DNA of 64,000 bases, from contig CAIUWA010000046.1 of NCBI GenBank assembly GCA_903902745.1, positions 62,001 through 126,000 of the forward strand, written 5' to 3'. This DNA comes from an uncultured Opitutia bacterium. Lineage in GTDB: Bacteria; Verrucomicrobiota; Verrucomicrobiia; Opitutales; Opitutaceae. The position numbers were made by a program, and so were the translations under genes. The notes under the pieces are model-generated. The model did not search any database. It was not told the DNA's origin and saw only the letters and a list, made by a program, of their open reading frames with translations. Each line of letters begins with the position of its first letter. The stretch's first letter is position 1. Positions 58,479 to 64,000 of this stretch are shown in pieces.

Positions 58479-58573
58479 GCGTGGGATGACACAGGGAGGT
58501 CCGGCGGGTCGCAAGCCCGGAGGCCTTGGAACTTGGTGAAAGATTTGGAATCCGCCATCCGTTCCATCAGGGT

Positions 58574-59047
58574 ATGAAGGTGAGTTTCACCCAACACCTG
58601 CTGATTGACGGCGCCAACATCCTGCACGCCTGGCCGGAGTTCCGCCCGCTGCTCAAGCGCGACCGCGCGGCGGCCAGGTCGCAGCTCGTGCAACGGGTCA
58701 GCACCATTCACGACAGCGAGCTGGTGAGGGTGACGCTGGTCTTCGACGGGCGGGGAACCGAACTGATCGTCGAGCGCCCGTCGGGTCACGCGACCTTCTC
58801 GGTGCTCTACACGCCGTCCGCCCTCACCGCCGACGACCTGATCGAGCAATTGGTGGCGAAGGCAGCCGATCCGTCGCTCTGCATCGTGGCGACGGGAGAC
58901 CGGGGCGAGCGGGAAACGGTCGAGGCATCCGGCGCGCGGGTGATACCGCCGGAGGAACTGGCGGCGTGGGTGGGGCGGGTCGAGGCGCGGCAGAGTGCGC
59001 GGGTGGGGGAGCTGCGCCTCGCCAACTCCAAAAAATGGAGAAAATGA
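58574..59047 (+). CDS. NYN-domain (YacP/Rae1-like) endoribonuclease candidate
   Basis: PIN-like NYN-domain protein of 157 residues. It has HLLIDGANILHAWPE with the acidic metal-binding residue, VTLVFDGRG, and CIVATGDRGERETVEASGAR. It resembles Bacillus YacP (Rae1), a ribosome-associated endoribonuclease; the activity here is inferred. The stop overlaps the next gene (ATGA at 59044). Confidence 0.85.
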   Translation: MKVSFTQHLLIDGANILHAWPEFRPLLKRDRAAARSQLVQRVSTIHDSELVRVTLVFDGRGTELIVERPSGHATFSVLYTPSALTADDLIEQLVAKAADPSLCIVATGDRGERETVEASGARVIPPEELAAWVGRVEARQSARVGELRLANSKKWRK

Positions 59048-60312
59048 AGGGCGTGGGTGAATCTCTCCCCGTGACGGACGAAGAGGCGTCGGTCGCGGAA
59101 ATCCAGGGACTGTACGGGCCGTTTTCCTTTCCGGAGAAACTCTTCCAGAAAATCTGGTCGCGTGGTGACTTTGACCAAAACCTGGCCGTGCTGAGCGATG
59201 GCCGTCCGCTCCGGGTAAGGCATCCCGGCAAATGGAACCTGCTCGGCGGGCCGGATTTCAAGGGCGCCCGGCTGCAGCTCGGCGACGATGAGGTCACCGG
59301 CGACATCGAGCTGCATCTGCATGCGGAAGACTGGGCGGCGCACCGCCACGCGGGTGATCCGGCCTACGCGGGAGTGGTGCTGCACGTGGTGCTTTTTCCG
59401 CCCCGGCCGGGCTTGGTGACACACGGCGGCAATGGCCGCGTGATTCCGATGCTGGTACTGCTTCCCCTGCTCAACCATGACCTCGAGGAATATGCTGCCG
59501 AGGAGGCGGTTGAGATCCTGGCCAATCGCCCCATGGCCCATGCCTGCGAGGAACTGGGCGGGCTGGGTGAGGTGGAACTCAATACGCTCGTCCGCCGGCA
59601 CGCGGCGCAACGCTGGGGGCGGAAGGTGCATTTTGCGCGGCTGCGGTTGCAACGCCTCGGCTGGACGGCGGCCTGCCACCATGCAGCGCTGGAGATCCTG
59701 GGTTATCGTTTCAATCGGGCGCCGATGCTGCGGGTGGCGGCGCAGTTTCCACTGGAGGCTTGGACGGGAGGCGCGCTGCCCGTGGAGGCAGTGCTGGCGG
59801 CCGGGGCTGGGAGCTGGAGCCTGCAGGGCGTGCGGCCGGCCAACCAGCCTCGCACCCGGCTGCGGCAGTATGCCCTCTGGGCGAAGCTGCGCCACGACTG
59901 GCCGCTCGAATTGGAAGCCATGGCTTCCCGCCTGCCCCAGGGCGGCGGCTCGGTTGAAGCGACCACGGCCGGCTATCGTCGCCTGCAAGGTCTGGTGGCG
60001 TGGCGGCGGCGCCTGGCTCACGAGCTTTGCGCTGACGCCGTGACGGGAACGCGCTTCGATAATCTTGTCTGCGATGGATTTTTGCCCCTGCTGGCCGCCC
60101 GGGCCGTTGGCCAACTGGGCGGGCTTTGGTTTCATTGGTTTGCTGGCGACGTGCCACCGCATCTGATGCGGGCCTTAAGGGAACTCGGTGTGACGGGAGG
60201 GCACCTCCAACCGGCGTGTCACGGCGCCGCGCAGGGCCTGCTGGGGTGGCTGATCGAGCGCGAAAGCCGCGCCGCTCAGCTTCAGCCAACTCCCTTGGGG
60301 CGCGGGGCTTGA
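59044..60312 (+). CDS. DUF2851-family protein
   Basis: Protein of about 422 residues of the uncharacterised DUF2851 type. Recognisable parts are [36 protein letters not shown] and [17 protein letters not shown], with conserved acidic residues and histidines like those of nuclease-type cores, though no function is proven. The start at 59044 overlaps the NYN stop (ATGA) and has GGAG just upstream; an ATG at 59035 also exists. The coupling suggests a shared role with the NYN ribonuclease. Confidence 0.8.
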
Positions 60313-60338
60313 CAAGATTTGGGGCCGGACGATAGGTT
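60309..60338 (+). promoter_or_regulatory. possible promoter of nusA-infB
   Basis: Perfect TTGACA (60309-60314) with an 18-base spacer to TAGGTT (60333-60338), a weak -10. It overlaps the end of the DUF2851 gene and lies just before the leader hairpins. Confidence 0.45.
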
Positions 60339-60355
60339 CACCAACTCTTAAACAA

Positions 60356-60397
60356 CCACTTTTCAAGAAAGTGGGCCGTGTGGCCCGCTTTTTTTTT
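60356..60397 (+). promoter_or_regulatory. attenuator-like leader of nusA-infB
   Basis: Two overlapping hairpins can form. Terminator: AAGTGGGCC (60369-60377) with GGCCCGCTT (60382-60390), loop GTGT, followed by T to 60397 (nine T in the run from 60389). Alternative: CCACTTTT (60356-60363) with GAAAGTGG (60367-60374). Both need 60369-60374, so they exclude each other. The T-run ends 21 bases before the nusA ATG. This is the layout of a transcription attenuator; the regulator is unknown. Confidence 0.7.
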
Positions 60398-60418
60398 CCC
60401 ATCATCCCAACGTCTTCT

Positions 60419-61654
60419 ATGAGCAGCGAAATTCTATCCGTCCTTGAGTACATGGAGAAGGAGAAGGGCATCGGTCGTGCCGACATGATTGCCACGATCA
60501 GCAATGCGCTGAAGACGGCGGCGCAGAAGGGCGTGAATTCCGGCCAGGAGCTCAAGATCGACATCAACCCCAAGAACGGCCAGCTCCACGCGTGGGCCGT
60601 GCTCAAGGTGGTTGATTCCGTCAGCAATCCCAAGACCGAGATTCATGTGGAGAAGGCCCAGGCGGTGAAACCCGGTGCGGTCATCGGCGAGACGATCGAC
60701 AAGGAAGTCGATCCCTCCACGCTCGGCCGCATTGCGGCCCAGACCGCGCGCCAGGCCGTGATGCAGCGCCTGCGGCAGTTCGAGAAGGACCGCATCTACG
60801 ATGATTTCAAGGATCAGGTCGGCAACATCGTCACGGGCACCGTGCGTCGCCGCGAGCGCAACGATTTGTACGTCGATCTCGGCAAGGCCGAGGCGCTGAT
60901 GCCGGGCAAGGAACAGGTTCCCGGCGAGGAATACCAGCCGGGCGAGCGCATCCGCTGCCTGCTGCTGGCCATCGAGTCGACCCCGCGCGGTCCCGAGCTC
61001 ATTCTCAGCCGCGCCACGCCCAAGTTTGTCCGCCGCCTCTTCGAGCTCGAAGTCACCGAGATTGCGGATGGCACCGTTAAGATCGAGGCGTTTGCCCGTG
61101 AGCCAGGTTACCGCACCAAGATTGCCGTCACCTCGACCGACCCCAAGGTCGACCCGGTTGGCGCCTGCGTCGGCGCGCGCGGCGCGCGCGTGAAGACCAT
61201 CGTGCGCGAGCTTGGTGGCGAAAAGATCGACATCATCAAATACTTTGCCGACCCGCGCGAAATGATCATCGAGGCGCTCAAGCCGGCCTTGCCGCGCGAG
61301 ATCATCATCGACGACAAGACCCACCGCATCCTGCTCAAGGTGGCCACCGACGACCTCGCGATCGCCATCGGCCGCAAGGGGCAGAACGCCCGTCTTACTT
61401 CCCGCCTGATCGGCTGGCGCCTCGACATCGAGGAGTTCAAGGCCCTCGGCGACGATCCGCGCAAGACCGCGATCGATGCGCTCACCAAGGCCTTCACGCT
61501 CGATCCCGCCGTCGCCGCGCGGCTGGTCGACATGGGCATCAACTCGGCCGCCGCCTTTGAGGGCGTCGAGGCAGATGATCTGGTCAGCGGCGCGAACTTC
61601 ACCGCGGAGGAAGCCCAGGCGATCATCGCCCGCGTCACTTCGCAGCAAACCTGA
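60419..61654 (+). CDS. nusA: transcription termination/antitermination protein NusA
   Basis: RNA-polymerase-binding factor of 411 residues that modulates pausing, termination and antitermination. An N-terminal domain ([20 protein letters not shown]) is followed by an S1 domain ([20 protein letters not shown]) and two KH domains ([38 protein letters not shown]), then a short C-terminal helical region. No C-terminal acidic repeats are visible. It lies 31 bases upstream of infB. rimP, often upstream of nusA, is not in the window; a DUF2851 gene takes its place. Confidence 0.97.
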
Positions 61655-61685
61655 GCATCCGCCGCCCTTTCCTTACCGCAGCTGA

Positions 61686-64000
61686 ATGAGCATCCGCATC
61701 CACGAACTCGCGCGCAAGATCGGCATGGACAACAAGGAATTGTTGGCCCTGCTCAAGGAGCGGAAATTTGACGTCAAGAGCGTCTCCAGCACGATCGACA
61801 ACATCTCCGCCGAAGCCTTGTCCCAGGAGTTCGCCGGCAAGTTTCAAGCGGCCAAGCCCGAGGCGGAACCCGCTCCCGCAGTAGTCCCGCCCGCCGCCGT
61901 GCTTGCGCCGGAGACTCCCGCCACCGACCCGCAGAAGTCGCGCAGCCCGGTGGGGATATTCGTCAAGACCGCGCAGGACATCGCCCGCGAAAAAGAAGTT
62001 TCCGCCAAGGCCGCGGCCAAGCCGGCCCCGATGGTTCCGCCTCCGGCACCCCGGCCGGCGCCGCCGCCGCCGCGCGTCATTTCATCGTCCTACTCACCGC
62101 CGCCGACCCCGCCGCCCGTTCGCGTGGCGCCTTCGTCTCCGCCGCCCGTGGTTCGTCCGCCGGCTGCCGCGGGCCCTGCCCCCGTGGTTCCGCCGCCCAT
62201 TTCCCCGCCGCGGGTGACTTCTCCCGTGGCCGCGCCCAAGCCGCCGCCCCTGCCCGGCGCCTCTCCGGTGTTGGCCGTCCTTCCCCCGGTGGCCCCAAGT
62301 GTCAGGGTCACCACCAGCGGCGACGTCAAAATCATCCATCTCAAGCCGCCGATCGTCGTGCGCGATTTCGCCGTGGCGCTGGGCTTGAAGCCCTTCAAGC
62401 TCATCTCCGAGCTGAACCAGCTGGTCGGTTTCGCCTCGATGAATTCCAACATCGACGAGGCCGTGGCGACCAAGGTCGCGGAAAAATACGGCTTCATGCT
62501 GGAGATCAAGCACCGCGCTGATCCGGCCGCGCAGGCGGCGCAGAAGGAAAAGGAAAAGGACAAGAAAAAGCCCGAGGAGGACGAGTCGAAGCTCATGGAG
62601 CCGCGGCCCCCGGTGGTGTGCATCCTCGGCCACGTCGACCACGGCAAGACCTCCCTCCTCGACGCCATCCGCAAGGCCAATGTCGCCGCCGGCGAGGCCG
62701 GTGGCATCACGCAGCACATCGGTGCCTACCAGATCGAGTTCAACGGCCGGAAAATCACCTTTCTCGACACGCCCGGTCACGCCGCTTTCCAGAAGATGCG
62801 CGCCCGCGGCGCCAGCGTCACGGATATCGCCGTCCTCGTGGTCGCGGCGGATGACGGCTTCATGCCGCAGACGGATGAGGCGCTGAAGCATGCGCAGACG
62901 GCGGCGGTCACACTGCTCGTCGCCGTCAACAAAATGGATGTCAAGGGCGCCAACCTCGACCAGGTGAAGGCGCAGATGCAGCAGCGCAACATCGCGCCCG
63001 AGGACTGGGGTGGGGAAACGGTCACCGTGCCGGTCTCCGCCACGAAGGGCACGGGCATCAACGAGCTGCTGGACATGATTCTCCTGCAGGCGGACGTGCT
63101 CGAGTTGAAGGCGAACCCGAAGGCGGAGGCCGCCGGCGTCATCATCGAATCTCAGGTTGATGTCGGTCGCGGCCCGCTGGCCACCGTCATTGTGCAGCGC
63201 GGCACCCTGCGCGTCGGCGACGCCCTGGTGTGCGGCCCGCATTGGGCGAAGGTTCGCGCCATGTTTGATGACCAGGGCAACAATTTGAAGGAAGCGCCGC
63301 CGGCCACGCCCGTGCGTGTCATCGGCTGGTCCGGCACGCCCGAGAGCGGAGCCCAGTTCAAGGCCGTCAAGAACACCCGTGCGGCGGAAAACCTCGCCGA
63401 GGAGGCGCAACAGCTCCTCAAGAAGGCGACCACCACCGCCGACGCCATCCCGAAGGAAGTTTCGGTCGAGCAGCTTTTCGCCAACATTGCGGCCACGCAG
63501 GCGAAGACCCTCAAGGTCATCATCAAGACCGACGTGTTCGGCTCCGCGGAGGCTGTGCGCAACGTGCTCGAGGGGATCAAGAGCGCCAAGGTTTCGCTGG
63601 AGATCGTCTCGGCCGAAGTCGGCCTTGTGACCAAGAACGACGTGCTGATGGCCGGCGCGTCCGGCGCGGTCGTCATCGGTTTCAGCACCAAGCTCGAGAA
63701 TGGTGTCACCCCGCTCGCCAAGCACCACAAGGTGCGCGTCGAGACCTTTGGGATCATCTACGAACTCGGCGACAAGGTGCGGGAGATGATGGCGGACCTG
63801 CTCGATCCCGACCTCAAGGAAACGAAGACCGGCGCGGCTGAGGTGCGTGCGACGTTCCCGCTCGCCAAGGGTTTTGTGGCCGGCTGCCTCGTCACCGAGG
63901 GCAAGATCAACCGCAACGCCTCAGCGCGCCTGCGCCGCGGCAAGGAAATCCTGCACGAGGGCAAGGTCGCCACACTCAAGCGCTTCAAGGACGATGCCAA
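61686..64000 (+). CDS. infB: translation initiation factor IF-2 (partial)
   Basis: The first 771 or so residues of IF-2; the frame runs off the end at base 64000. The N-terminus has an IF2N-type domain ([20 protein letters not shown]), a proline/alanine-rich linker (about residues 60-210) and a second IF2N-like segment ([19 protein letters not shown]). The G domain begins with GHVDHGKT at G315, then DTPGHAAF and NKMD, followed by the EF-Tu-like domain 2. IF-2 positions initiator tRNA on the ribosome using GTP. The start codon is the ATG at 61686. Confidence 0.97.

Follow-up and report, generated by a model that had tools for sequence, protein, structure and literature searches.

The rimP-leader, described as the most ubiquitous attenuator, has a conserved GGGc...gCCC stem followed by a U-run and lies 4-130 nt from the gene it precedes (Naville & Gautheret 2010, PMC2965389). 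As its partner RimP was considered possible and NusA was the preferred candidate, and in the passages cited the general form has no visible antiterminator, whereas the gammaproteobacterial form contains a tandem upstream terminator and a clear potential antiterminator (PMC2965389). Feedback by NusA at such leaders has been reported for B. subtilis, where NusA is autoregulated by NusA-stimulated termination in the leader (2025 review PMC12288461, citing Mondal et al. 2016), and it has been proposed for E. coli, in which terminators t1 and t2 lie upstream of rimP and NusA controls its own operon (PMC6511841). It was also suggested for the rimP-nusA-infB operon of S. agalactiae, where transcripts were seen by RNA-seq to end at a predicted intrinsic terminator, 31 nt downstream of the start (PMC4448216). 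The rimP gene accompanies nusA-infB in ~65% of genomes (PMC9514032, in whose cited passages the phylum considered here is unmentioned).

Here we analyzed a 64,000-nt stretch of DNA (the window) from an uncultured Opitutia bacterium of the phylum Verrucomicrobiota, in which a predicted promoter, a predicted terminator, nusA, and infB follow one another. Like the rimP-leader, the terminator has a stem with GGG on its 5′ side and CCC on its 3′ side, and then a U-run. However, whereas the rimP-leader heads rimP-nusA-infB, this leader stands directly before nusA and heads nusA-infB, with rimP undetected in 38 relatives and 240 phylum genomes; it also differs in having a U-G pair in the stem and an upstream CACTT element that is conserved in the window's family. 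As in the autoregulation of B. subtilis nusA, an intrinsic leader terminator (predicted here) precedes the gene. In contrast, regulation by NusA is established in B. subtilis (PMC12288461) and is proposed here by analogy, and B. subtilis has RimP, serving as a positive control of our RimP_N search. The 3′ end in S. agalactiae is experimental, whereas that of the window leader is predicted, ~54 nt after the inferred start. The E. coli metY-rimP-nusA-infB leader is unlike the window leader in containing two terminators and metY, and a GGGC...GCCC hairpin with T7 can be read before rimP in the E. coli genome. The Rfam model RF01770 (rimP) was tried and gave no match over 47 bits in the window's own genome; among 14 controls only E. 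coli matches, which marks the model as narrow. The window leader is most likely the rimP-leader attenuator of Naville & Gautheret (2010), placed directly before nusA. A literature search, in part by name of the phylum or a genus, listed no paper on this leader in Verrucomicrobia.

Organization of the nusA leader

The features of the locus are collected in Table 1. An earlier note on this DNA had pointed to a TTGACA just upstream, to a 9-bp terminator with a T-run 21 bases before nusA, and to an 8-bp alternative hairpin formed on terminator bases; these readings and their coordinates hold, and in our reading the two hairpins share 60367-60374.

Table 1. Predicted and annotated features of the nusA-infB leader region, in window coordinates
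Feature	Position	Strand	Basis or remark
DUF2851 gene, upstream neighbour	59047-60312	+	ORF listed from 58966
TTGACA, −35 hexamer of predicted nusA promoter	60309-60314	+	sequence reading; kept across family leaders
Candidate −10, TAGGTT, weak match, 18-nt spacer	60333-60338	+	by eye from family leader list
Inferred untranslated leader RNA	60344-60418	+	predicted start 6 nt after −10
CCACTTTT, 5′ arm of alternative hairpin, holds CACTT element	60356-60363	+	conservation in family
GAAAGTGG, 3′ arm of alternative hairpin	60367-60374	+	overlaps terminator 5′ arm; folding and alignment A1
Terminator 5′ arm, 13 nt; core AAGTGGGCC at 60369-60377	60365-60377	+	
Terminator loop, GTGT	60378-60381	+	
Terminator 3′ arm, 13 nt; core GGCCCGCTT at 60382-60390	60382-60394	+	
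T-run, 9 T; predicted 3′ ends of terminated RNA	60389-60397	+	
nusA, 411 aa, NusA_N + S1 + KH	60419-61654	+	ATG 60419-60421
infB (IF-2), runs past window end	61686-64000	+	

The −35 hexamer overlaps the TGA stop codon (60310-60312) of the upstream DUF2851 gene, and the terminator sits 52 bases past this stop codon. A consensus scan of 58500-62000 listed no sigma-70-like promoter, the candidate −10 included. The gap between the T-run and the nusA ATG is 21 bases. In a comparison of ten loci, the window's NusA was closest to the protein of a Verrucomicrobiales MAG (49% identity); next came an Auribacterota MAG (44%) and then a Verrucomicrobia MAG (43%).

The 9-bp core of the terminator stem can be extended to 13 pairs (60365-60377/60382-60394). 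Folding of 60344-60397 gave −19.9 kcal/mol (z −4.33), with 0/200 shuffles equally good, and a hairpin of −16 to −20 kcal/mol with T9 constitutes a strong predicted terminator. A simple terminator scan left the plus-strand terminator before nusA unlisted, possibly owing to the overlap of the stem with the T-run. None of the triplets ATG, GTG, TTG, and CTG occurs from 60344 up to the terminator stem, and a leader-peptide attenuator was rejected on this ground; three GTG triplets lie inside the hairpin, those at 60371 and 60380 in frame with nusA and that at 60378 opening 14 codons. A boxA-like reading of ACTCTTAAACAA was dropped, as by eye most relatives do not keep the sequence.

Conservation of the terminator hairpin

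We compared 126 nusA leaders, 36 from the genomes of relatives (the window's own included) and 90 from a search of the phylum, the latter picked among the listed matches and hence biased toward strong NusA_N scores. Leaders were searched for a hairpin of the G[TC]GGG...CC[CT][GA]C type followed by a T-run in the 170-200 nt before nusA, with 1366 stretches of 203 nt as the control. The hairpin and T-run were found in all 32 leaders of the window's family, in 22/24 from the rest of the order, and in 43/70 outside the order (10/19 from elsewhere in the class and 33/51 from the phylum beyond the class), compared with 23/1366 control stretches. Because 27/70 leaders outside the order are without the motif as searched, the leader element is not indispensable.

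Several leaders deviate from the searched form. Within the order, no terminator was found before nusA in L016 (genome G036, a 1.3-Mb assembly, 91% complete), in which TTGACA lies 54 nt before nusA and the attenuator is apparently lost, and L024 has a terminator without the G[TC]GGG motif. Six misses in the class (L058, L061, L065, L087, L088, and L091) contain a sister hairpin, GTGGAAACT...AGTTTCCACTTTTT, which was left uncounted; it is found before nusA in two families of the same class and retains the GTGG start and not the GGG. In nine genomes of one genus (g56; L276-L284) the nusA leader hairpin is identical, AGTGGGTCTGTCGACCCGCTCTTTT, and lies 34 nt before the NusA match. In several leaders outside the order (e.g., L051, L063, L101, and L107), a GYGT or NGTCT stretch can be seen by eye after the short T-run (TTTTGTGTCT, TTTTTTGTCTG); it is similar to TTTTTTTATGTCT, which follows the rimP hairpin of E. 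coli.

In the 32 family leaders the terminator falls between the predicted promoter and nusA. The −35 hexamer, TTGACA in 29/32 and TTGACT in 3/32, stands 56-73 nt before GTGGG, the T-run ranges from T8 to T11, and 18-46 nt separate the end of the stem from the nusA ATG, a distance into which a second promoter could hardly fit. An extra check covered 18 family genomes without the strict motif (defined below) whose leaders had previously been unseen. Five were without a NusA match; from the 13 with one, 12 leaders were read (L315 was left out), and these contained the hairpin in 12/12, TTGACA in 12/12, and CACTT in 9/12. The proposal of the earlier note that an attenuator lies ahead of nusA-infB is well supported by the promoter-terminator-nusA order conserved in the 32 family leaders.

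To describe the helices we used alignment A1, which holds 30 of the 32 family leaders (L069 and L070, with long loops, were left out); rows L012, L025, L026, L032, and L071 end before the T-run, and the outer pairs of these five rows are absent from the helix statistics. In the terminator helix, 99.0% of cells are paired. Its covariation score and its four double-change cells are above those of 500/500 shuffles, a score that the related rows inflate, and its single double-change pair is matched by 275/500 shuffles. The U-G pair U60372-G60387 is invariant in the 30/30 family rows. Across the order this position is U-G in 46 leaders and C-G in 8 (n = 54), and outside the order U-A in 25, U-G in 13, and C-G in 5. 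The first outer stem pair across the order is A-T in 44, G-T in 5, and G-C in 5 (n = 54). The 5′ side is mostly constant (GUGGG), and the exchange of A for G falls on the 3′ side, which suggests that the sequence of the 5′ arm matters beyond pairing.

Association with nusA and absence of detectable rimP

The strict motif AGTGGGYCN{3,8}GRCCCGCTTTTTT occurs in 34/61 family genomes, one per genome (reversed control, 0), and in 34/34 it lies just upstream of nusA on the same strand (21 assigned by position and 13 by NusA profile). A second motif, AGTGGGN{4,9}CCCRCTYTTTT, was found in 53/144 phylum genomes, again one per genome (5 control hits), and stands at nusA in 52/53 (38 by position and 14 by NusA profile), with G058 as the exception. 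With the covariance model R1, 24 matches were obtained from 23/70 order genomes, 20 of them at nusA and L294, L295, L296, and L304 away from it; its single match in the window's own genome is the window leader (E 2.2e-13), a sequence that belongs to the model's building set. When all genomes were scanned with a related exact motif, at least 115 loci were found. Among the matches listed, 80 loci were examined and nusA follows within 3 kb downstream in 8 (at 21-93 nt in 3 and after a gap of 510-549 nt in 5), some of the other 72 ending too soon past the motif to judge; thus, across bacteria the AGTGGG-type motif is not confined to nusA. Within the phylum the two motif forms are nusA-specific. 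A crude hairpin finder also revealed AGTGGG hairpins before rimP in 5/18 loci from Bacillota, Nitrospirota, and one cyanobacterium (Paenisporosarcina quisquiliarum, Bacillus sp. DNRA2, Paenibacillus whitsoniae, a Nitrospirota MAG, and Leptolyngbya sp. FACHB-8), of which the Nitrospirota locus had been chosen by a related motif at the same place.

The earlier note had remarked that rimP is missing here. Indeed, RimP_N was detected in 0/38 relatives and 0/240 phylum genomes, making the absence phylum-wide in this sample and not a peculiarity of the locus. The same model detected RimP in 10/14 controls and 18/19 other genomes, and NusA_N was detected in 36/38 relatives and 233/240 phylum genomes. 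With a RimP C-terminal model, whose cut-off is exceeded in only 8/14 controls, 0/38 relatives scored over the cut-off and weak matches below it were seen in 11. A very divergent RimP in the phylum is possible.

A CACTT element upstream of the terminator

In RNA 60344-60375 the alternative hairpin folds with −8.5 kcal/mol (z −2.58; 4/200 shuffles equally good). A search of the 42 nt preceding the terminator 5′ arm found the CACTT element in 27/32 family leaders (2.4 on average and 11 at most in 500 shuffles), in 7/22 leaders from the rest of the order (mean 1.5, maximum 7), and in 2/43 outside the order (mean 1.7, maximum 7); it is absent from 5/32 family leaders and from 3/12 of the further family leaders. 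Its distance from the −35 hexamer is 43-52 nt with an SD of 1.5 (27 leaders), and its distance from the partner arm has an SD of 3.3. The alternative helix is paired in 92.8% of A1 cells, compared with at most 67.6% when slid. No covariation was found for this hairpin in A1, 398/500 shuffled partners being at least as paired. Folding of the alternative hairpin leader by leader gave a mean z of −0.85 in the family (p<0.05 in 5/32) and of −0.65 in the rest of the order (p<0.05 in 2/22).

When the RNA ends at GGG, each of the 32 family leaders has two or more of its five GTGGG bases in an upstream hairpin, which does not always involve CACTT. In a simple model of nascent RNA, with 10 nt hidden in the polymerase, the window's alternative hairpin lasts until transcription has roughly reached the last T of the T-run. 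Folding at the decision point, with the polymerase at the eighth T, was carried out for three groups of leaders and four hidden lengths. In the family, the terminator arm was in an upstream hairpin in 26/32 leaders with 10 nt hidden (10.3 expected) and in 31/32 with 11 nt hidden (23.5 expected); there was no difference with 8 or 9 nt hidden, nor in the rest of the order or phylum. The CACTT hairpin is mainly a family feature and lies outside the conserved core. A possible function, plausible and unproven, is that of a family-specific antiterminator or delay hairpin.

Of the mutually exclusive hairpins on which the earlier note had based its reading, the terminator thus stands, and the alternative hairpin, kept in the family, has no covariation and is rare outside the order. 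The same division is seen for loss in close relatives, where the terminator is retained and the alternative hairpin, judged by CACTT, only in part (27/32), and for covariation across the relatives' leaders, where the terminator score surpasses all 500 shuffles but includes one double-change pair, and the alternative hairpin yields none.

Alternative explanations

The hairpin could be a constitutive terminator that ends upstream transcripts and sets a fixed low level of nusA, with no regulation. Its strong stem with T9 and its position 52 bases behind the DUF2851 stop codon are consistent with such a function, and the NusA response is argued here from analogy; a strong terminator with T9 might, moreover, need little NusA, which counts against a NusA switch. 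However, in 32/32 family leaders the hairpin lies downstream of a conserved TTGAC[AT], and the sequence of its 5′ arm, beyond pairing, recurs across the phylum and in some rimP leaders elsewhere. A DUF2851 homologue is present upstream of nusA in 20/36 genomes, the window's own included, and the hairpin is retained in 14/16 relatives without one (L016 and L024 being without the hairpin as searched), so that the hairpin goes with nusA; for the same reason, a terminator serving the upstream gene only was rejected. We consider constitutive termination unlikely. It is very improbable that the leader is a known ribosomal-protein, T-box, or riboswitch leader. The best sub-threshold Rfam match, L20_leader, reached 19.1 bits (E 0.089), but the cut-off of that model is 58.7 bits and the paired part of the match is the terminator; in addition, the downstream gene is nusA and no aptamer-sized region lies between the inferred start and the terminator. 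At the gathering score the whole window matched two tRNAs only, and these leader classes were rejected.

More room is left for other readings of CACTT. In a true two-state attenuator, the CACTT hairpin would be a dedicated antiterminator switched by a ligand, a protein, or transcription speed, and NusA would be one of several inputs. The frequency of CACTT in the family, far above the 2.4 expected after shuffling, and the upstream pairing of the arm when 10 nt are hidden (26/32) speak for this reading, which we consider possible but less likely than not. However, the alternative hairpin shows no covariation, and the folding effect is gone when 8 or 9 nt are hidden and is not seen in the other leaders of the order or phylum. 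The spacing of CACTT, evener to the −35 hexamer than to its partner, fits a start-site-linked element too. CACTT may instead be a promoter-proximal sequence that belongs to the initial transcribed region or is bound by a protein near the 5′ end of the RNA, with its complementarity to AAGTG incidental. The near-constant distance from the −35 hexamer in 27 leaders is in keeping with this, as is the occurrence of CACTT beside GCGGG arms in L056, L057, and L074, but the alternative helix is far better paired in A1 than when slid, and in L069 and L070 the loop is enlarged with both arms retained. An incidental match of this kind seems possible to us without being the reading we would favor.

Discussion

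The order of promoter, terminator, and gene, its conservation, its specificity for nusA in the phylum, and the undetected RimP can be read from the sequences compared. We consider it probable that the leader is a cis-acting attenuator of nusA-infB that is subject to feedback by NusA and represents a version, without rimP, of the leader that is widespread before rimP-nusA-infB. RNA polymerase would start near 60344 and meet a strong intrinsic terminator ahead of nusA; a fraction would read through to give the nusA-infB mRNA, and the remainder would terminate to leave a short, ~54-nt RNA. Polymerase-bound NusA would promote hairpin folding within the exit channel, such that high NusA would reduce read-through and low NusA would increase it, providing negative feedback. 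In the window's family, CACTT may first pair with the terminator 5′ arm, thereby delaying the terminator and sharpening the dependence on NusA. Termination in vivo, NusA as the effector, and the role of the CACTT hairpin are what we infer from sequence. NusA autoregulation appears the best hypothesis because of the analogy with published leaders (PMC12288461, PMC4448216, PMC2965389).

A bolder, and in our judgment doubtful, reading is that the AGUGGG 5′ arm is read as sequence by NusA or by NusA-bound polymerase in a wide range of bacteria, and that a fast-forming CACTT hairpin added in the family holds the terminator open unless NusA helps. Such sequence reading would account for the persistence of AGUGGG without rimP and for the unusual U-G pair.

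Compared with the leaders described before, what is new here is the invariant U-G stem pair within the family, the promoter-proximal CACTT (27/32, mainly in the family) complementary to the terminator 5′ arm, and the persistence of the leader without detectable rimP, which points to nusA-infB as the target. The absence of detectable RimP_N across the phylum sample raises the question of how 30S maturation proceeds without RimP. A phylum without detectable rimP that nevertheless has the leader before nusA constitutes a natural experiment favoring nusA-infB as the target of this attenuator. The window leader would also be a very small version of a promoter-to-gene switch, convenient for in vitro study of how NusA reads a hairpin, and, if the 5′ arm is indeed read as sequence, it would be a minimal RNA sensor of NusA, ~54 nt in length.
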